Of a stretch of DNA of 64,000 nt, positions 37,867 through 48,246 are shown piece by piece (position 1 is the first letter of the stretch; the number at the start of each line of letters is the position of its first letter). The DNA comes from Geminocystis sp. NIES-3708. Its GTDB lineage: Bacteria > Cyanobacteriota > Cyanobacteriia > Cyanobacteriales > Cyanobacteriaceae. The notes under the pieces are model-generated. The model saw nothing but the letters and a program-made list of their open reading frames with translations, had not been told where the DNA came from and did not search any database. The position numbers were made by a program, and so were the translations under genes. The DNA is taken from the NCBI RefSeq assembly GCF_001548095.1, contig NZ_AP014815.1:1115656-1179655 (forward strand), read 5' to 3'.

Positions 37867-38599
37867 ATGAGAGGAGAAGTTGAATTTAGATCAGATAAAT
37901 TAGCTGTTTTAATCGATGCTGAATAATACCAGTACAAAAGTGATGGAATCTTTATTAAGAGAAATTGCTAAATTTGGCACTGCTTATGTAAAAAGAATAT
38001 ATGGTGATTGGACAAATCCTCAAATGAATACATGGAAAAAACTCCTTAACGACTTTGCTGTGTTACCAATACAACAATTTTCTTACACAACTGGCAAAAA
38101 TTCAACGGATACAGCTTTAATTATTGATGCAATGGATTTGCTTTATACGGATAAATTTGACGGTTTTTGTATTGTCTCTAGTGATAGTGATTTTACTAGG
38201 TTAGCCCATCGTATTAGGCAAAATGGTTTAGTTGTTTATGGTTTTGGGAAAAAAACGACTCCGAAAGCTTTTGTTTCTGCTTGTGATCGATTTATTTGTA
38301 CTGATTTATTAGATGTTGATACAGAAAATTTAGGTAATGAAATTGTCCAAGAAAATATACCTGTTGAAATAAATAATACTCAAAAAAAAGATAAAAAGTT
38401 AAATAAATTGTTAAAAAATGCCTCTGATTCAGTTGTAGGAGATGACGATAAAACAGTGAATTTAGGGACTCTAAATCAACAATTGTTAAAACTAGATTCT
38501 TCTTTTGATCCTAGGGCTTATCACTGTAAAAAACTAGGAGAATTATTAAAATCAACAGGATTATTTATTGTAGAAGGAAATAATGTAACTTTAAAATAA
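37867..38599 (+). pseudogene. NYN-domain / OST-HTH protein interrupted by a 1-nt frameshift
   Basis: The N-terminal fragment (ATG 37867) reads LAVLIDAE and hits TAA at 37924. One base away, the other frame continues NTSTKVMESLLREIAKFGTA to 38599. Family members read LIDADNTS here, so GATGCTGAATAAT carries one extra A relative to the expected GATGCTGATAAT. The break falls in the first catalytic Asp motif of the NYN (PIN-like) nuclease. The remainder is intact: TDTALIIDAMDLLYTD, SSDSDFTRLAHRI, and a C-terminal OST-HTH/LOTUS domain (about the last 50 residues). It may be a pseudogene, a programmed frameshift or a sequencing error. An internal start at 37916 would give a 227-residue protein lacking the first Asp. 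Confidence 0.75.
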
Positions 38600-38652: not shown

Positions 38653-38706
38653 TTATTCAATGCTTTCGAGTTCGTTTTCTGCTTTGTCGTACATTTGTTT
38701 GATCGA
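38653..38706 (-). pseudogene. decayed copy of the chlH 3' end (remnant 1)
   Basis: On the minus strand this reads SIKQMYDKAENELESIE and stop, aligning without gaps and in frame with the last 17 residues of ChlH ([17 protein letters not shown] and stop). Seven residues are identical and most others conservative; 35 of 54 bases match. It lies about 4.9 kb from the live chlH 3' end in the same orientation. Upstream codons do not continue as chlH. Confidence 0.65.
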
Positions 38707-38811
38707 GCTTTATAATAACTTTTTAATTAGTTTTTCTAATTTACTCATTATTTTAAATTCAAAAGGTGAAGTGTGCATCACTCTACAATGATTTTATAAA
38801 AGAGTTAATTA

Positions 38812-39010
38812 TTACTCAATATTTTCGATGCGATCGCACAGTGCCACTTTGTCTTCGGCGTAGCCGCACCTTCGATGATCGAAAACTTCTTGTTATGATA
38901 ATTGAGATTTGATCGATATTCTTCTCTGAGATTTCCCCATAAAATATACTTTTATTGAGCCTTCTTGTTAAAATAGAGATGCCATAGAGCCTTTTCAATA
39001 CAACGGTTAA
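38812..39010 (-). pseudogene. decayed copy of the chlH 3' end (remnant 2) with a short insert
   Basis: The minus strand ends DRIENIE and stop, against DRIEGIE and stop in ChlH (21 of 24 bases). After an insert of about 50 nt (38833-38883, containing the CTTCGGCGTAGCCGCACCTT repeat) homology resumes with YGEISEKNID against [10 protein letters not shown] at 38910-38945, and weaker similarity continues to about 39010. It sits directly before the DUF262 gene. Confidence 0.65.
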
Positions 39011-39089
39011 AATGTCAAAAAAGTTATTTATATAAATTTTGGAATTTGTTAGAATTAGTCTGATTAAGTATATTTCATTTCCGTCAAAT

Positions 39090-40220
39090 ATGATAACCAC
39101 ATCAACTATTGAAATAAGTCAAGAAAGACAAAATGAAGCGGAAGAACAAATCAGAGAATTACATAAAACAGTTGACTACAATACAATAGAATATCCCATT
39201 GAAGTTATTGTCAATAAATTTATAGAAGAAGAAAACGGAAAAACAGAATTATTTATTCCCGATTATCAAAGAGAATTTGCATGGGATGAAATACGTCAGT
39301 CAAAATTTATCGAATCTATTTTATTAGGATTACCTATTCCTGCCATTTATGTTGCTGACAATTCGGAAGAGTTACTAGAGGAAAATAATTTAGAAACAGA
39401 AGATTTAGGCCGTTGGGAAATTATAGATGGCACTCAAAGAATTCGTACTTTAGCAAGATTTATTAATCAAGAATTAAGATTACAAGGTTTAGAAAAATTA
39501 ACTAAATTAGAAGGGTTTTTATTTTCTGATTTACCATTGGCACGACAAAGAAGATTTAAAAGAGCATCAATCAGAATTATCGAATTAACGGAAGATACTG
39601 ACGAAGAAACTCGTAGAAATTTGTTTGAAAGAATAAATAGTGGCAGTGTTGAATTGAACGCCATGGAAAAACGTCGAGGAATTAGGAGAGGAAAATTTCT
39701 TGATTTGCTCGATAAATTGGCTAAAAATACTAAATTTCTTGAGCTTTGCTCTTTTTCAGAAGCACAAATAAAGTATAAAGATCCCCAAGAATATATATTA
39801 CGTTTTTTTGCATTTTTAAATAATTATGATAACGGTTACGAAAGTTTTATAAAAAAAAATATAACTGATTTTCTCGATGAATATTTAGAAGAAACAAATC
39901 AAATTACTTCTGACAAAATATTAGAGATGGAAAAAGAATTTAATCAGATGTTAAATTTTGTAGAGAGATATTTTCCGAATGGATTTTACCAAGAAAATAA
40001 AACAGGAAAAAAACCTGTCACCAGAATTAAGTTTGAGTCTTTATCGGTGGGAATAGCTTTAGCGTTGAGAGAAAATCTTAATTTAAAACCCACCTCTAAT
40101 GCTCTTTCTTTATTATATTCAAAAGAATTTAATGATTATACTAAAGGGGATGCTAGTAGCTCGAAAGTTAAAGTTCTTCGCAGAATTAACTATGTTAAAA
40201 GTATGCTGTTAGGAGAATAA
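39090..40220 (+). CDS. DUF262 (GmrS/ParB-like) protein, probable defence component
   Basis: A 376-residue protein (start ATG 39090; an upstream TTG at 39039 is less likely). The DUF262 core is clear: IPDYQREFAWDEIRQSKFIE, SILLGLPIPAIYV, the nucleotide-binding WEIIDGTQRIRTL (usually DGQQR) and LFERINSGSVELN. The C-terminal half is helical without an HNH nuclease (no DUF1524 part), so it resembles stand-alone GmrS-like sensors. A GTG-started HEPN nuclease gene begins 3 nt after the stop, with the RBS AGGAGAA inside this gene's end. The two-gene unit is probably an antiviral or abortive-infection module. Confidence 0.87.
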   Translation: MITTSTIEISQERQNEAEEQIRELHKTVDYNTIEYPIEVIVNKFIEEENGKTELFIPDYQREFAWDEIRQSKFIESILLGLPIPAIYVADNSEELLEENNLETEDLGRWEIIDGTQRIRTLARFINQELRLQGLEKLTKLEGFLFSDLPLARQRRFKRASIRIIELTEDTDEETRRNLFERINSGSVELNAMEKRRGIRRGKFLDLLDKLAKNTKFLELCSFSEAQIKYKDPQEYILRFFAFLNNYDNGYESFIKKNITDFLDEYLEETNQITSDKILEMEKEFNQMLNFVERYFPNGFYQENKTGKKPVTRIKFESLSVGIALALRENLNLKPTSNALSLLYSKEFNDYTKGDASSSKVKVLRRINYVKSMLLGE

Positions 40221-40223
40221 CAA

Positions 40224-40910
40224 GTGCAAACAGTATTGGATGATTTTAACCAAAGAGCAAAAGAAGTTACTGATTATATAGATTTTGTTAAAAACTTAGA
40301 AGAACAGGAAAAAAAAGCAACTAATGATCACTATTTATCAATAGTAAAGGTTAATTTGTTAACTACACTTAAAGCTACTGCATATTTATTATTATACAAT
40401 CTAGTTGAATCTACAATTAGAAATGCGACTCAACTTATTTTTGATGAAATAATTACTAGAGAAATAAATTTTGATGATCTTCGCAGGGAAATAAAAAAAT
40501 TTATCTGGAAAAATGTTAGAGATAGAGACAAAAACTTTGATCGCTTTATTGAGAATACCAACCATATAATAAAAGATCTTGTGAATCAGCAAACTTTGGA
40601 TACTGATAAGATGTTTTCAGGTAATTTAGATAGTAAAGCTATTAAAACAATTTCTGAAAAATTCTTAGGCTTCTCAACAGAAACTAAATCACAAAAAACT
40701 TGGGATGGAAAGGATTTAAGATCAATTAAAGATAATAGAAATGATCTGGCTCATGGTTTAAAATCTTTTAGTGATATTGGTAAAGACGTAAGTTCAAATG
40801 AAATTTGCCAAATTAGTGAAAGAGTTATCGAATATTTAAAACAAATTTTAGAAAATATTGATCATTATTTAGCTAATGAAGAGTATTTGGAGTCAAATGT
40901 AAAAAGGTGA
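40224..40910 (+). CDS. HEPN-family nuclease (MAE_28990/MAE_18760-like)
   Basis: A 228-residue alpha-helical protein with the HEPN RNase signature R-x4-H in RNDLAHG near residues 173-179, preceded by DLRSIKDNR. The N-terminal half (LKATAYLLLYNLVESTIRNA) matches the MAE_28990/MAE_18760 HEPN-like family defined in Microcystis. HEPN toxins cleave RNA, often as dimers. The start is GTG, tightly coupled to DUF262, which probably controls it. The 3' gap (40911-41117) contains a possible further chlH-end remnant near 40961 (ACCTTTGATTCGATCGCA). Confidence 0.85.
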   Translation: MQTVLDDFNQRAKEVTDYIDFVKNLEEQEKKATNDHYLSIVKVNLLTTLKATAYLLLYNLVESTIRNATQLIFDEIITREINFDDLRREIKKFIWKNVRDRDKNFDRFIENTNHIIKDLVNQQTLDTDKMFSGNLDSKAIKTISEKFLGFSTETKSQKTWDGKDLRSIKDNRNDLAHGLKSFSDIGKDVSSNEICQISERVIEYLKQILENIDHYLANEEYLESNVKR

Positions 40911-41117
40911 GCTAAATGTTTAAAATACATAATTTTATGAGATAATTAATAATCATTAAATACCTTTGATTCGATCGCACTGATAGGATATGATGAGTTC
41001 GATCGAACCTAATTTTCAATCATTAATTTAAGGCATAATTAATTTTGTATTTGAGTGCTAAACTATGATTTGAAAGTAATATCAATGGTCAAGATAAGAT
41101 CATTGCTTATTAGAAGT

Positions 41118-41332
41118 ATGATAAAAACTTTTACTGCCAGAGTCTTTCCAGAGGGAAATTGGTTTGTTGCCCAATGTTTAGAAGTTGAGATTGCTAGTCA
41201 AGGAGAAACAGAAACTGAAGCATTAGCAAATCTTCAAGAAGCCCTTGAATTGCATTTTGAGCGTCCTTGTGCCACTATTTCCCCACATTAGAAAAATTAC
41301 AAGTAGAAATCGATTATGATAATGATCAATAG
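41118..41332 (+). pseudogene. HicB-family antitoxin truncated by a 1-nt frameshift
   Basis: The gene starts MIKTFTARVFPEGNWFVAQC (ATG 41118; the frame is open from 41055) and has the HicB core ASQGETETEALANLQEAL. After CATISP the frame hits TAG at 41289-41291. One frame over the text continues PTLEKLQVEIDYDNDQ to a stop at 41332, which is the expected HicB tail, so one C has probably been lost in the CCCC run at 41280-41283. A 57-residue truncated product remains possible. No HicA gene follows. Confidence 0.65.
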
Positions 41333-41362
41333 TTTTTTAGAGCGGGTTTATAGAAAAGGATT

Positions 41363-41551
41363 ATGACTAAACTCTCCATTGATATACCTATTAGAAATAT
41401 TGCAGAATTAATAACCTCTATGAACAAACAAGAAATTGAAACCCTATATCTTCTTTTAACAGAAGAAGGGGCAGAACTTTTGGAGAGGAAAAATGATGTT
41501 TTACTAAAGAAATTAAAATTTTTAGACAGAGACGAAGCCTTTGATGTATAA
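41363..41551 (+). CDS. putative antitoxin of a RelE-type pair
   Basis: A 62-residue acidic, helical protein (MTKLSIDIPIRNIAELITSM; LLLTEEGAELLERKNDVLLK) with no classical ribbon-helix-helix or AbrB motif. Its stop overlaps the start of the RelE-like toxin gene by 8 nt, the usual layout in which the antitoxin is translated first. Antitoxin function is therefore inferred from context and size. Confidence 0.65.
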   Translation: MTKLSIDIPIRNIAELITSMNKQEIETLYLLLTEEGAELLERKNDVLLKKLKFLDRDEAFDV

Positions 41552-41831
41552 AGATCAATATCATCCAAGAATAAAAAAAGACTTGAAAAAACTTGATCCA
41601 CGAATTCGTGAAGAGATCAAGAATAAATATATACCCAATATTTTATTATCCCCTAATATAGGTCATAATCTCGAAGGTGATTTAAGTGGTATTCTTTCTT
41701 ATCATATTACGATCTTCAAGCAACAATATCGCATTGCCTATATTGTTGATGAAAATGTGAAAACAGTGTTTATTCTTATGATTGGTAAAAGAGGCGATTT
41801 TTATACTCTCTTGAAAAGAAGAATTGCATAG
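41544..41831 (+). CDS. RelE/ParE-superfamily toxin
   Basis: A 95-residue basic protein starting at ATG 41544 (MYKDQYHPRIKKDLKKLDPR). The first ORF codon, TTG at 41541, is less likely. It has the RelE fold features: N-terminal HPRIKKDLKKLDPRIREEI helix pair, GHNLEGDLSGILSYHI, the strand QQYRIAYIVDEN and the C-terminal IGKRGDFYTLLKRR. RelE proteins cut mRNA on the ribosome. It overlaps its antitoxin by 8 nt. The module is bounded downstream by a chlH-end remnant at 41850. Confidence 0.83.
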   Translation: MYKDQYHPRIKKDLKKLDPRIREEIKNKYIPNILLSPNIGHNLEGDLSGILSYHITIFKQQYRIAYIVDENVKTVFILMIGKRGDFYTLLKRRIA

Positions 41832-41849
41832 TTTCAGGGATAGGGAATG

Positions 41850-41989
41850 AAAGATTTGATCGAACAGCACCACTTCGTGATCAAACCCTTCTTGGTAGAA
41901 GCATTAAAGTCATTTATATAAATCACATCCTACAATAAGTTAGAGAGGGTTAGAATTTAAAATCATCAACCGTTTACTAATCTTATCGA
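41850..41989 (-). pseudogene. decayed copy of the chlH 3' end (remnant 3)
   Basis: The clearest part is 41948-41989, which reads on the minus strand DKISKRLMILNSN, against [14 protein letters not shown] in ChlH (KRLM-LN-N conserved). The C-terminal part is recognisable by GATTTGATCGAAC and CCCTTCTTGGTAGAAG, with the same kind of short insert as remnant 2. The distance between the two parts is close to that in chlH. It separates the RelE module from the 497-residue gene. Confidence 0.65.
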
Positions 41990-42066
41990 TGTTTTACAAT
42001 TACAAGATTAGAGATAATAAAAGCTAAAATAGATAGTATATTTGTTCAATATATTGCACTTAAACA

Positions 42067-43560
42067 ATGAGCATGAATCCACAACATTTGATAGCTCAAA
42101 TTGACAAGCCCATATATCTTCATTTTCTGAATCGAGAACTTTTATCTCCCATAATTAATTACAATTCTGATTCGATTAGAAATAATATTTTAATGGATGT
42201 ACGTTTAACATTATTAATGGGCGATAGGCACTGTTATTTATCACCTTCATTAATATTTGAAGATCGTTTTGCACGTTTAGTTATTAATCAATTTCCAAAT
42301 TTGTTCCAAGAAGGACATATTCGTTTATCGTCAAATTACTATAATATATGCGAGTTTATTGACGAAAAAAAAGAACAATATTCTCATGCTCAGAAATATT
42401 ACCCATTTTACTTTAATGATACATACAAAAAAATTGAAGATGTTGGTTTAATCTATCAGAGAAAAGATACAGATACTAGCCTGATTTTAACTGACAACAT
42501 AAAAAATAAACTGCACGATAAAAACAATAGTGATCAATTATTACTCAATCTTAAATTGACTTCATCTCAACCAAGAATAGACGGATTTAAGCCCTATGCT
42601 ATTGAAGCGATAGAAAAAAGAGGTAATTTTGCTGTGACAGGATTATTATTTGAGAATGATTTTAACAAACATGATTTACAAGAAAAAGAGAGAAAATATT
42701 TTGATTTAATAATTGTTGAGCAATATATAATCAGCTATTTATTAGATTTTAACGGTGTCATTGCCACTAATTTACTATCTGGAATTAATCATTTTAACTA
42801 TCTTGCTACTGAATTTCCCTTCTATGATATATCACTATGGCAGTATATTTACGACAGATTAGGATGTATTGATTTTATTCGTAAATGTTCAGATATTGAA
42901 ATTATATCTATCAGAGAAGAACCGATATATAAAAAATTTATTAATACTATTCGTCTTTGTATTAATGAAGCAGTAAACTCAATCGTAATTGATACAATCA
43001 AAATCTCTAACACTGCAAAGATAGAAAAAATAAAGAGTCAATTAAGTGGAAATTTATACACTGTTAGGCTATTTAAAAAAAGTAAAAATATCGATGATTT
43101 TTTAGAAAACTTAAATTTAGCAACAGAAATTCTTGAGTCTCATGGATTTAAAATAGAAGTATTGTCTTCAAATGTCAAAGAAAATTGTCCAAAACAATTA
43201 AATCAGCAAGGCTCACAAACTAATAATTATAATAACTGTACAATATTTAACAATTCAGGAAACAATCATATGACGGATAAGAGAAGTACTAATATTAATA
43301 ACGGAAATTATAACGAAAGTGTTGATCAAAGCCGTAATTTTACAACAGGGAATGTAGGTGGAGATTTAAAAATTGAAGGTACATCCATAATGAATGATAA
43401 TCATGAAATAACCGAAAAAAACAAGAGAAAAATGATCATAATCAGTGTATTAATATTCTTAATACCAGTTTTTGCATCTCTTTTTGGAGGTTTATTTAAT
43501 CCAGAAACTAGACAATTGTTAAAGTTAGATCATCCAATCGAAACTAAAGAAGAAAAATAA
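42067..43560 (+). CDS. unrecognised 497-aa protein with C-terminal membrane helix
   Basis: No known domain was recognised in the first ~390 residues, which look globular with mixed alpha/beta content (LTLLMGDRHCYLSPSLIFED near 50; HAQKYYPFYFNDTYKK near 107). A Asn/Gly-rich stretch follows (about 393-440; NNYNNCTIFNNSGNN, INNGNYNESVDQS, FTTGNVGGDLKIEG) that resembles short beta-repeat linkers of cyanobacterial accessory proteins. One strong membrane helix (IIISVLIFLIPVFASLFGGLF, about 458-478) and a short charged tail end the protein. It is the module nearest to the chlH 3' end and is convergent with it. A sensor-plus-membrane-effector role in defence is a guess from context. Confidence 0.6.
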   Translation: MSMNPQHLIAQIDKPIYLHFLNRELLSPIINYNSDSIRNNILMDVRLTLLMGDRHCYLSPSLIFEDRFARLVINQFPNLFQEGHIRLSSNYYNICEFIDEKKEQYSHAQKYYPFYFNDTYKKIEDVGLIYQRKDTDTSLILTDNIKNKLHDKNNSDQLLLNLKLTSSQPRIDGFKPYAIEAIEKRGNFAVTGLLFENDFNKHDLQEKERKYFDLIIVEQYIISYLLDFNGVIATNLLSGINHFNYLATEFPFYDISLWQYIYDRLGCIDFIRKCSDIEIISIREEPIYKKFINTIRLCINEAVNSIVIDTIKISNTAKIEKIKSQLSGNLYTVRLFKKSKNIDDFLENLNLATEILESHGFKIEVLSSNVKENCPKQLNQQGSQTNNYNNCTIFNNSGNNHMTDKRSTNINNGNYNESVDQSRNFTTGNVGGDLKIEGTSIMNDNHEITEKNKRKMIIISVLIFLIPVFASLFGGLFNPETRQLLKLDHPIETKEEK

Positions 43561-43570
43561 TTATTCCTAT

Positions 43571-43593
43571 TAAAAAGGTGGGCAATGCCCACC
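43571..43593 (-). terminator. intrinsic terminator of chlH
   Basis: GGTGGGC-AAT-GCCCACC (43577-43593) forms a perfect 7-bp GC-rich stem with a 3-nt loop. Read on the minus strand it is followed by TTTTTA (43571-43576), giving a standard rho-independent terminator 14 nt beyond the chlH stop codon. The hairpin would also serve the convergent gene ending at 43560, but without a T-run on that strand. Confidence 0.8.
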
Positions 43594-43607
43594 CTACGAT
43601 TTAATGA

Positions 43608-46600
43608 TTACTCAATGCCTTCGATGCGATCTTCCGCTTCTTGGTACAGTTGTTGTAATCGACCGATATTCTCTTCTGAGGTTTCCCAGTAACCACGCCC
43701 GTTAACTTCTAAGAGGGTGCTTACCATACGGCGGAATGAGTTGGGGTTTAAATCCATTAACCGTTTACACATCTCTTCATCTTGGATAAAGGTGGTGTTG
43801 GTGTCTTCATAAACCCAGTTATCCACAGCGTCGGCGGTGGCACTCCATCCCATGGTATTTACAAGGCGTTTCGATAATTCCCTTACCCCTTCGTAGCCGT
43901 GAGATAACATCCCTTCGTACCATTTGGGATTTAATAATTTGGTACGGGCATCTAAACGCACGGTTTCCGATAAAGTACGGACTTGAGCGTTAGCGGTGGT
44001 AGTGTCTGCGATATATGCAGAGGGTTTTTTCCCGTCATCGCGCAAGGATGCAACTACTTTTGTAGGATCAGAGTCGAAATAGTGGGAGACATCCGTTAAG
44101 CTAATCTCAGAAGAATCGAGGTTTTGGAAGGTTGCATCAGCCGTTTTTAAGGATTTCTCAAAAATGCCTCGACTTTCATCCATGACTCCCGGATTATCGG
44201 AGTTAAACGCAAAGGATTTACGGTTTAAGTACATATCCCGCAATTCTTGCTCTTCTTCCCAACTACTGTTTTCTACCGCTAGGTTAACGTTACTAGAATA
44301 TGAACCAGATGCGTTGGAAAAGACACGGGTTGCCGCTTGACGTAGGTTGATACCCATTTCTTCCGCTTGTTGCAGTGCATGTTTACGGACGAAATTCATC
44401 TCTAAAGGTTCGTCTGCTTCGGCGGCTTTTTTGACGGCTTGATCAAGTAAATTCATTTGATTGATGAATAGATCACGAAATACACCAGAACAGTTAACAA
44501 CTACATCAATACGAGGTCTGCCTAATTCTTCTAAGGGGATTAATTCGAGTTTGTTGACGCGCCCTAAAGCATCAGGAACGGGTTTAACCCCAATCATCCA
44601 CATAATTTGTGCTAAGGATTCCCCATAGGTTTTGATGTTATCCGTTCCCCATAATACACAAGCGATCGTCTCTGGATATTTTCCGCCGTTGTCTAGCTTT
44701 TGACGCTCTAAGAGTCTGTCCACAACGATTTTAGCTGATTGTACCGCCGCTAAAGTCGGTATTTTTTGGGGATCGAGAGCATGAATGTTTTTACCAGTCG
44801 GCAACACATTGGGGTTACGGATGGGATCGCCACCGGGTCCAGGTAATACATATTCACCCTCAAGGGCTTTTAATAACGCACCTAATTCATTATCCGCACA
44901 AACTTGCTCTAAGCAAAATTCGAGATATTCAAAGAGTGGTTTTATGGCTTTTTCGTCAACTTTGGTGTAACCTAATTCGTGTAATTTAGCAACCCAAGGC
45001 TCTTTTTTGCCCATATTGAAGAAATTTAGCTTAGAAACAAAAGAAACTCGCCCTTCTGCGTTGATTTGTTCCTCTACTAAGGCTCTTACTGCCGCTCTTG
45101 TGGCTTCGGTGATGTTTTGTAATAACTCCACATCCGCTAAAACTCCTTTATCAGCGTTACGGTAAATATCCTCAATTTTACGCCCGATACTATTAGCAAT
45201 GATGGTGGTTAAAGCCAAAATGCCCTCATCTTCTCTGTCTAAACTAGCAATATTGACAAGAGTTGCGATCGCTTCCTCAGCAGTGGGAGGTTTACCGACA
45301 ACGTGCAATCCACAAGGAAGTAAACGGGATTCAATTTCCATCAACTTGCGATAAACTGAACCGACAATGTGATCACGTTCATTTTGAGACATGGTGCTAG
45401 AGTCGATCATTTCGGCTTCTTGCCCTTCAGGAGTCGCAATTTCAGGGATGTCTTTATCTAAGTTGCAAATTCTGGCTTTGTCGATGATGGTGTTAACAAT
45501 TTGGATGGCGCGCCCACTATCTTTAAGGCTTTGATATGAACCGATTAACTCGCTTAATTCTTCTAAACCCTTGTACAGTCCAGCATTTTCCGCAGGGGGG
45601 GTTAAGTAAGAAATGGTAGCGGCATAACTACGACGTTTAGCGATAGTTGCCTCACTGGGGTTGTTAGCGGCGTAATAGTAGATATTAGGAATATTACCGA
45701 TAAGGCTATCAGGATAACAGTCACCAGACATCCCCATTTGTTTACCCGGCATAAATTCAAGAGATCCGTGTGTTCCAAAATGCAACACTGCATCTACACC
45801 CCAAACTTTTTCGAGGTAGGTATAGTATGCCGCAAAACCGTGGTGAGGAGAGGCAGAGCGAGAAAAAAGTAGTCTCATAGGATCGCCTTCGTAACCGAAG
45901 GTAGGTTGCACACCAATGAAAACGTTACCAAATTCTTTACCGTAAATTAACAGGTTTTGTCCATCGCTGTTGAGATGCCCCGGAGGCGCACCCCAGTTTT
46001 CTTCTAATTTTTTGGAGTAGGGGGTTAAACGCTCGTATTCTTCCACACTCATGCGATAGGCAACGTTTAATTCGGGGCTGGAATATTGGGCTTGGGCATC
46101 GTGAATTACCATCTCCATTAACTCCTTGGCAGTTTCTGGCACGTCTTGCACGTCATAGCCGTTGTTTTTCATGCCCTTTAATACTTCGTGAATTGAGCCG
46201 AAAACGTCTAAATAAGCGGCTGTACCTACGTTACCCTTATCAGGAGGGAAGCTAAAGACGGTAATCGCTAATTTTTTGTCAATTTTGGGCTTTTTACGTA
46301 AATTTGTCCATTTTAAAGCACGAGAGGCGATCGCCTCTACCCTGTCTTGTAAAGTGATAGAGCGTCCTGTATTACCATCCCGTCCAGATAAGATGATAGG
46401 TTCGATCGCACCGTCTAATTCGGGGATAGCGATTTGTAGTGCAACTTGGATAGGATGCAAACCGAGATCGCTTTCTTCCCATTCTTCCGTAGTTTGGAAT
46501 ACCAACGGTAAAGCCACCATATAAGGGCGATTCAGACGTTTTAAAGATTCGATCGCCTTGGGATGATCTTGTCGTGCAGGGCCACCTACAAGGGCAAAGC

Positions 46601-47630
46601 CCGTTAAAGATACTACAGCATCAACAATTGGTAATGGCTCAACACCAGCGACGGCTTTATCTAAGAAATACTCATCAACAGGCTTGGAAAAGTCTAAACC
46701 ACCTGCAAAAATAGGAATAACACGAGCGCCACGATATTCTAACTCTTGCAACATTGCTACATAGTGAGCATCGTCACCAGTGACAAGGTGAGTACGTTGT
46801 AATACTAAACCAATAGTAGGAGCAAGAGGATCTCTTAAATCTCCATTGATATCATCACGGTTATTGTACCAGTTGAGGTATTCCTTAATGTCCTCAAACA
46901 TTTTGGGTGCGAGGGGATGCCAAATACCCATATCAGGATACACCACAGGCTCGTTATATTCTCGGTTGCTTAGTAAGGATTTTTCTCCCGTGAAGACGTA
47001 TTTATCCGCTAACATCAAGAAGAAGTTTTCGAGGTTATCGGCATTACCCCCCAACCAGTACTGAAAACTCAACATAAAGTTACGTGCGTCTTGGGCTTTC
47101 TCGACGGGAAGATATTTTAAGACGGTGGGCAGGGTGCGTAATAATTTGAGCATGGCATCTTCAAAACCTGCACCATTTTTCTGCTTACGCTTCTTCATAA
47201 ATTCACCGATGACACTCTTACTTTGTCCGAGTTGTGCCATACTGAAGCTACCCATTTTGTTAAGACGCATTACTTCAGGCATGGAAGGGAAAACCACCGC
47301 CGCATCGAGTTTGTCACGGTAAGGGGTGACGGCATCGACAACTTTTTGGGCTAAGTCTTCGATAAAGATAAGGGAGGCAATGAAGATATTTGCTTCTGAT
47401 ACGTCTTTTTTAAATTCTTCATAGTTTTCGGGGCTTCGTAACTCCTCGATAAGATAACCGCTTACTTCGATCGCAAGGTTAGGATTATGGGCGTTAATGG
47501 CTTTGACGGCGGCGGTGATTGAGCTTTGATATTGTGCTTCTAACAACACATAAACCACCTTCATTAAAGCACGTCCTTGTAAATCTTCGGGTGCGATATG
47601 ACGAACGGCGGATTTTACGTTAGTAAACAT
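43608..47630 (-). CDS. chlH: magnesium chelatase subunit H
   Basis: ChlH binds protoporphyrin IX and, with ChlI and ChlD, inserts Mg2+ in the first committed step of chlorophyll synthesis. The 1340-residue length is typical. The frame is open to 47696, but Met at 47630 ([20 protein letters not shown]) matches the family start. Recognisable segments include [80 protein letters not shown] and [20 protein letters not shown]. The gene ends at an intrinsic terminator. Beyond its 3' end lie three decayed copies of its own last 54-160 nt between accessory modules. Confidence 0.97.
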
Positions 47631-48246
47631 TAAGTAGTAAACTCCTGTTAAGTTAGATTGTAAAAGAAATATGAAAAAAATGATGACAGTGCTCAAAATA
47701 CACTCTTTATTGTTTTTACCACGAAACTAGGCTTTTTTACTTAGTATTACCTTAATCTTTACGGTAATCCGTAGTTTTTCGTTACATTTATTCATATCTG
47801 TAGCTTACTAGGGAGAAAGTCAACTCGGACAGTTTTCAATACCAATTTACTATTTCTCAGCTATAAGGAAAAAATCAGGAATTACTACTATTCAAATATA
47901 AATTGTAATTAAAAATAAAGATATAAAAATAACTAGCAGGATTAATGGCTTATACATGGCAAAATAAAAACCAAAATAGCAGTTAGGAAAAGATGAGATA
48001 AATTCATTATTTGGATTAGTAATTTAATTTTTTTCCATATTAAAGATAAATAAAAATAGGCTAAAAAGGCTTATTTTAGCGATGATTTCTGATGTATATT
48101 TGTTATTTTAAATTATTATAAAATTCAAAATACTTGATATATCTTAATTTTCAAGCTTTATTGTTACATCAAACTCAGGACAACTATTAGTAATCTTAAA
48201 GAATTTATCAACAAATAAGAATTGATTTCCCATCTATTAACAGGAG
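47631..48246. other. chlH upstream region, about 600 bp without genes
   Basis: AT-rich sequence with no supportable ORF on either strand. The chlH promoter and leader must lie here; on the minus strand AACAGGAG just upstream of the 47630 start is a plausible ribosome-binding site. A weak imperfect hairpin (AAAATAGGCT/AGGCTTATTTT) occurs near 48055. The region ends at the YoeB-like remnant. Confidence 0.4.

Follow-up and report, generated by a model that had tools for sequence, protein, structure and literature searches.

How small accessory genes, some of toxin-antitoxin or phage-defence type, come to be stacked behind a core photosynthesis gene, with decayed pieces of that gene's own end between them, is the question raised by the DNA downstream of chlH (magnesium chelatase H subunit) in Geminocystis sp. 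NIES-3708. The window analysed here is a stretch of 64,000 nucleotides (nt) of contig NZ_AP014815.1 (assembly GCF_001548095.1, positions 1,115,656 to 1,179,655), in which the array occupies positions 38,653 to 43,607 behind an intact chlH (Table 1). An initial annotation had described three stretches matching the end of chlH, with separate modules among them, and had proposed repeated insertion at one site, each event restoring the 3' end of the host gene and pushing the old end outward. The present comparison suggests that the remnants are probably former chlH 3' ends displaced outward by successive cassette additions, through homology-anchored illegitimate recombination (insertion with long target duplication). 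Relatives are designated below by genome (G) and locus (L) handles.

The last 260 nt of chlH were aligned to the 6.6 kb behind the gene, with 200 dinucleotide shuffles of that region as control. Three remnants were recovered, all 3' of chlH and in its orientation: r2 (38942-38869) scored 27.5 against chlH positions -85 to -10 (counted from the gene end), r1 (38713-38653) scored 26.5 against the last 62 nt and r3 (41993-41931) scored 21.5 against -176 to -114, with a further 18 for the terminal part of r2 (38835-38812). The shuffles reached at most 20.5 (95% point 17), the rest of the window at best 18 and the opposite strand 17, so that r1 and r2 are clear while r3 is marginal by score alone. 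The three matches of the initial annotation were thereby recovered, and its codon readings (DRIENIE-stop, KRLMxLNxN and the ChlH-like codons of r1) and coordinates were borne out by the sequence. Its layout of r1 and r2 needed correction: a hairpin-like insert interrupts r2, and a HicA gene start, truncated, stands between the two remnants. The candidate it had rated weaker, around 40961, proved to be a real remnant, r4 (40976-40929), which scored 26 against the chlH end and 3' untranslated region (UTR) of G004, the best of 200 shuffles reaching 19 and the best of 105 other segments 20. r3 gains support from the edge of a RelE block (94% identical in G011) that adjoins it at 16 nt, and from a derived insert that it has in common with r2. 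On sequence comparison, r1, r2, r3 and r4 are thus decayed chlH 3' ends, r3 marginally so on score.

With stricter scoring the window gave matches of 38 (-55 to 0), 34 (-80 to -53) and 33 (-24 to 0), two of which reach the stop; in the same scan a best match of at least 36 was obtained for 17 of 525 other genes, many of these being whole-gene tandem copies. A chlH-end remnant of the congener G008 matched r2 with E = 1.5e-15 and the chlH end of G000 more weakly, with E = 3.3e-11. A search of seven genomes with this G008 remnant (40 of 86 and 40 of 57 candidates being scored in two of them) gave otherwise only chlH ends or remnants and three bits of 24-25 nt, and the idea of a dispersed mobile repeat was rejected on this distribution.

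The nearest genomes compared were four of the same genus and ten others of the family; counting the window's own genome, chlH orthologs of at least 84% identity were present in 13 of 15. The initial annotation had suggested comparing the locus in related cyanobacteria, and this showed displaced ends preceding sequence that directly abuts intact chlH elsewhere. The segment 40912-39019 (HEPN and DUF262/GmrSD) is 82-83% identical at the nt level to G004, where it starts less than 50 nt from the end of the gene's stop. Its position in the window is 2.7 kb out from chlH, with r4 just before it, and it ends at 39019 where r2 begins. Behind r2, segment 38768-38712 is 96.5% identical to the start of the HicA gene of G010, located there at 31-87 nt, counted from the first base of the chlH stop codon. 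Two window cassettes, HEPN-DUF262 and the HicA start, are therefore found next to intact chlH in other genomes. In G010 itself, a weak copy of the chlH end (20.0, against up to 22.5 in its own shuffles) precedes a second occurrence of this HicA-start sequence. A third block, 41834-41310, encoding a ParE-like toxin and its partner, is 94% identical to a block in G011, on the far side of which lies a 31-nt piece 93.5% identical to r2. Overall, a remnant adjoins four of the five block edges, including 39019 (r2), 40912 (r4) and 41834 (r3).

A fresh case was found in G282, where chlH is followed by a 1.4 kb module, a 134-nt chlH-end copy (136 nt including the stop, 98.5% identical) and, after it, the cassette found immediately behind chlH in the congener G105. 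From the copy onward, 1.38 kb (copy included) is 94% identical to the chlH end and downstream DNA of G105, which carries this cassette directly behind chlH without the extra module and copy of G282 and thus supplies the empty-site comparison that the initial annotation had called for. The copy matches the G204 chlH end without a difference, and the DNA behind chlH in G204 starts as in G105, whereas the present G282 chlH end differs from the majority at two sites. Since the segment past the copy corresponds to the DNA behind intact chlH in G105, the module together with one chlH end looks like the added part.

The chlH-downstream DNA was then surveyed in 132 genomes of the order (133 loci), counting end-anchored copies with a score of at least 44 (scoring +2/-3) within 4 kb of chlH. 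Five genomes (G132, G041, G282, G234 and G292) already showed extra matches before inclusion, the remainder not being chosen for copies. Own-end matches of this score were present at 11 loci (G282, G201, G076, G037, G009, G174, G008, G142, G044, G312 and G013), of which G013 (score 45) is not end-anchored and was left out; G132 and G041 are likewise not among the remaining 10. End-anchored copies were thus found at 10 of 133 chlH loci versus 6 of 742 neighbouring genes (Fisher p = 1.7e-5), or at 9 of 132 chlH loci without the previously flagged G282 (p = 7e-5). No opposite-strand copy with a score of at least 34 was found at the 133 chlH loci. Further copies lie beyond 4 kb (8.5 kb in G132; 9.8 kb in G234, with a second at 15.3 kb), as do r1 and r2 of the window; G064 scores 41, the flagged genomes add copies in G369 and G025, and a copy in G036 lies on another contig. 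A looser scoring (+1/-1) was discarded in favour of +2/-3, AT-rich control genes reaching 30-37 with it. In G132 (L068), two chlH 3' parts lie 8.5 kb apart and resemble each other across 600 terminal nt or more; the second contains a 792-codon open frame. Either a large duplication that arose in the same way or a fault in the assembly may lie behind this.

The pattern is not confined to chlH. Own-end copies of chlD were present in 2 of 20 genomes (G036 and G011, the G011 match being just 26 nt), a rate not different from that of chlH (p = 0.66), and the idea of chlH as the sole hotspot was dropped; it is at most one of several such genes. The chlD sample comprised 19 genomes and the window, none chosen for chlD, with the pre-picked positive G144 omitted, and was partly chosen for positive chlH. 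In a protein-level search of 148 genomes, chlD gave one short copy (G144) and four further second copies that are full-length, and chlH at least five in the same 148 (G025, G036, G041, G076 and G132), the flagged genomes alone being checked. A penicillin-binding-protein-like control, named by reading, gave no short copy among the matches listed for 110 genomes. The chlD copies start 93 nt (G144, L209) and 42 nt (G036, L208) before the stop, beyond small accessory genes, and enclose, by reading, an antitoxin and PIN-like pair (G144) and an NYN-like gene (G036). For cobN-like paralogs the count was 0 of 13 at score 44; three own-end copies were found elsewhere, in G292 (L171) and at two loci of G167 (L172 and L173), where they lie behind PIN-MazE, small-gene and HicA modules. 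Conserved genes of the chlH kind seem more affected than neighbouring accessory genes.

The length duplicated varies widely. Copies of chlH start at -49, -61, -134, -144, -165, -173, -221, -223 and beyond -600, those of the paralogs at -96, -205 and -221 and those of chlD at -42 and -93, and duplicated lengths range overall from about 26 to more than 600 nt, arguing against one attachment site or crossover point. In chlH, chlD and the cobN-like genes alike, the copy behind each gene is of its own end, as homology anchoring predicts. Within the remnants, the insert AAGTGGYRCTGTKCGATC is common to r2, r3 and the G013 remnant and occurs exactly twice in the window (0.05 expected). Given this common derived insert, the three remnants probably share a decayed ancestor, which weakens the reading of r2 and r3 as independently displaced ends. 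Some remnants may thus have been decayed already on arrival inside a multi-cassette block. Repeated addition that leaves chlH complete and moves the old end outward, as initially proposed, is supported, with the refinements that the site is not one precise position, that other genes are affected as well and that not all remnants are independent events.

The cargo was examined by a Pfam scan of 57 proteins, comprising the seven of the window and 50 of the 82 listed open reading frames (ORFs) of relatives. Twenty of the 50 matched toxin-antitoxin, Uma2, restriction-modification or HEPN families above the cut-off: Uma2 in G201, G076, G369, G025 and G234; HicA or HicB in G167, G009, G008 and G010; PIN and MazE in G292, ParE in G008 and PhdYefM and HigB in G234; two DNA methylases and TdeIII also in G234; and HEPN in G013. 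Eleven belonged to other families (UvrD-like and DUF2290 in G009; PP-binding in G008 and G010; HTH_37 in G008; 2OG-FeII oxygenase, DUF1848 and HTH_3 in G234; DUF5615, TPR and DUF4352 in G132), three matched below the cut-off only (Y1_Tnp in G037, PIN in G174 and UPF0150 in G008) and 16 had no family match. No integrase or resolvase was present among the 57 proteins, which cover 50 of the 82 listed ORFs of relatives, in agreement with the initial annotation, which had reported no integrase. In G044 an ORF that is Uma2-like by reading runs on, in frame, into the copy of the chlH end. Directly behind chlH in G282 and G312 lies an uncharacterised pair of genes (182-198 and 131-167 amino acids, aa), which recurs after two small genes in G174, all three genomes being of family f8 (L088, L082, L152).

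A homologous anchor combined with an illegitimate second junction fits the variable starts, the own-end copies and the lack of a recombinase in the scanned cargo. In the route that we consider likely, DNA from a related strain carrying a chlH 3' part with a cassette behind it would pair with the resident chlH; the first junction would form by homologous crossover within chlH, while the incoming end without a counterpart in the recipient would be joined illegitimately into the last part of the resident gene. This would leave chlH complete but hybrid, followed by the new cassette, then a truncated copy of the old chlH 3' end and last the old cassette; retention may be aided by the addictive or defensive nature of the cargo. 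For the window this would place two arrays, each already carrying the old remnant, one before the other (r3 and its cassettes in front of those of r2), r4 being a newly displaced end.

Several observations weigh against this reading. Loss of a cassette by recombination between the repeats would yield the same two end states, so the direction proposed here, gain, is a matter of interpretation. Allele linkage in G282 depends on a very small number of single-nucleotide differences (none between the copy and G204, two with G105), and three strains without the G105-type cassette differ from the copy by one base. The outer junction of G282 lies in an interspersed repeat with at most 2 nt of microhomology with chlH, a figure that comes from this one junction, and the homologous crossover point was not located. 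Several starts cluster near -205 to -223 in chlH and the paralogs, perhaps a sign of a preferred position. Given the shared insert, simple displacement of functional ends one after another does not account for every remnant. The far edge of the window's RelE block (41310) adjoins a 78-aa gene and no remnant, and the locus counts ignore the kinship of the genomes.

A broader scheme, which we regard as doubtful, is that of a recombinase-free, integron-like cassette array, in which the ends of core genes serve every strain as shared landing pads, travelling displaced ends act as portable anchors and Uma2-type nucleases may provoke capture by cutting cassette-free alleles. Portable anchors would explain the insert common to r2, r3 and the G013 remnant. 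No integrase turned up in the general Pfam scans, no IntI or attC model having been run.

Restoration of a gene end and bounding of the cargo by direct repeats are the usual signature of site-specific integration, and islands using the chlH 3' end as attachment site, with the integrase acting in trans or since lost, would account for both, as well as for the clustered starts just mentioned. The 57 scanned proteins, with 50 of the 82 listed ORFs of relatives among them, included no such enzyme, the crossover position is not constant and chlD shows the pattern with an end of its own, making this explanation unlikely. Tandem duplication of the chlH 3' end, with accessory genes landing between the copies later by unrelated means, has a precedent in the truncated 3'-end copies of the six control genes, one of them 85 nt behind its gene; it is distinctly improbable in view of the G282 segment past the copy, which corresponds to what follows intact chlH in G105, and of the block edges that adjoin copies in the window.

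Spread driven by the cargo itself is a further option, with nucleases such as Uma2, GmrSD/DUF262 or restriction enzymes cutting cassette-free chlH ends and repair from a donor copying the cassette and sometimes misjoining. Among single families, Uma2 is the most frequent (5 of 50 ORFs, HicA being next with 4, besides the Uma2-like ORF of G044 recognised by reading) and GmrSD_N is present in the window. Many modules, however, are without such a nuclease (HicAB, the pair of 198 and 167 aa, PIN-MazE), and Uma2 is abundant genome-wide in cyanobacteria, so we rate this option as very improbable. Chance similarity in AT-rich DNA, or a dispersed repeat that has nothing to do with chlH, could be argued from the loose-scoring controls, from an opposite-strand chlH match of 32.0 in G031 (shuffles 25.5) that is absent under strict scoring and from the G010 copy, which taken alone scores below its shuffles, but is refuted for the phenomenon as a whole by the fresh copies of G282, G369 and G234, the confinement of remnant-family matches described above and the positioning of r4 and r2 by orthology, r3 being the one remnant that, by itself, would stay open.

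Insertion with long target duplication has been described for restriction-modification genes of Helicobacter pylori (Nobusato et al. 2000, Gene 259:99, as cited in PMC1643837 and PMC3031569). Both situations involve a unit between direct copies of a long target of variable length, and the restriction-modification cargo there may have a counterpart here in the toxin-antitoxin, Uma2, restriction-modification and HEPN matches of 20 of the 50 scanned ORFs of relatives. What sets the chlH case apart is a target that is time and again the end (3') of a core photosynthesis gene, across nine families of one order, and copies that are stacked and decayed. For type VI secretion system (T6SS) effector-immunity modules of Vibrio cholerae, sequential displacement by homology-facilitated illegitimate recombination has been proposed (PMC5361080); a conserved upstream anchor, addition of a new module, a downstream shift of the older part and the building of arrays by repetition are all shared with the reading proposed for chlH. 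There the anchor lies in the toxin cluster and the effector is replaced, whereas here an unrelated housekeeping anchor stays complete. Orphan module arrays of Rhs and contact-dependent inhibition (CDI) systems (see PMC5361080) similarly carry displaced 3' ends in strings downstream of a conserved gene; the displaced ends encode toxins in those systems and are decayed chlH pieces here. The cargo genes of the window are separate and chlH is complete, and they are not alternative ends of the anchor gene as in the Rhs/CDI or T6SS arrays. In Microcystis aeruginosa PCC 7806, a ParE/ParD-like module lies behind maoC1 between two 152-bp direct repeats (PMC7935541). This is again a toxin-antitoxin unit behind a cyanobacterial gene and bounded by long direct repeats, but the maoC1 repeat starts 14 bp past the stop and is thus not the gene's own end. 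Judged by title and the start of the abstract, no published account of chlH-end copies was present among the matches listed for chlH, cyanobacterial islands, toxin-antitoxin or the two mechanisms.

How small modules of the defence and toxin-antitoxin kinds pass between bacteria with no mobility genes in sight is still an open question. Such arrivals leave a fossil record in displaced gene ends, legible in the sequence alone, and the recurrence of these ends behind one essential gene across a cyanobacterial order provides a natural series, from fresh to decayed, for testing the route of capture. A search for core genes followed by truncated copies of their own ends should reveal more integrase-free accessory loci.

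Table 1. Features of the chlH-downstream array in the 64,000-nt window, listed outward from chlH.
Feature	Coordinates	Strand	Description	Basis
chlH, magnesium chelatase H subunit	43608..47696	-	complete anchor gene, 3' end at 43608	ORF
post-stop stretch of chlH with GTAGGGTGGGCATTGCCCACC hairpin	43573..43607	-	common to chlH-adjacent DNA of G010, G014, G008 and G001	
module 1, 497-aa gene	42067..43560	+	without Pfam or PADLOC match	
r3, decayed chlH end	41850..41993	-	chlH -176 to -114 at score 21.5, weaker pieces after; shared insert 41858-41875	
module 2, ParE-like toxin (41541-41831) and 62-aa partner (41363-41551)	41310..41834	+		Pfam, G011 block
78-aa DUF7387 gene	41055..41291	+		Pfam
r4 (40961 candidate)	40929..40976	-	final ~21 nt of chlH and its former 3' UTR	
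module 3, DUF262/GmrSD_N (39090-40220) and HEPN_MAE_28990 (40224-40910)	39019..40912	+		Pfam, G004 block
r2, chlH-end copy through stop (DRIENIE-stop)	38812..39010	-	broken by hairpin-like insert containing 38832-38849	
HicA-type cassette, truncated start	38712..38811	-	after intact chlH in G010, 96.5% over 57 nt	
r1, outermost chlH-end copy	38653..38713	-	last 62 nt and stop	
NYN/OST-HTH gene past r1	37916..38599	+		Pfam

The NYN/OST-HTH gene is probably outside the array, since its ortholog in G009 sits far from chlH. At the inner end, the GTAGGGTGGGCATTGCCCACC hairpin lies immediately 3' of the chlH stop in several family members, and we take it to resemble a repetitive extragenic palindromic (REP) element. 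A gene of the REP-associated tyrosine transposase (RAYT, Y1 transposase) type lies behind chlH in G037, with a similar fragment, recognised by reading, in G076; RAYT as a general mover was rejected, Y1_Tnp being matched in G037 only and just under the curated cut-off.

The 497-aa gene of module 1 gave no Pfam or PADLOC match at E up to 0.01 and no relative in the 14 other family genomes or in a scan of genome contigs. Its product is Asn-rich in the middle with a hydrophobic segment at the C-terminus, and is possibly a new effector candidate. In module 3, PADLOC grouped the DUF262 protein with NsnA (1.6e-64) and PD-T4-2_A.

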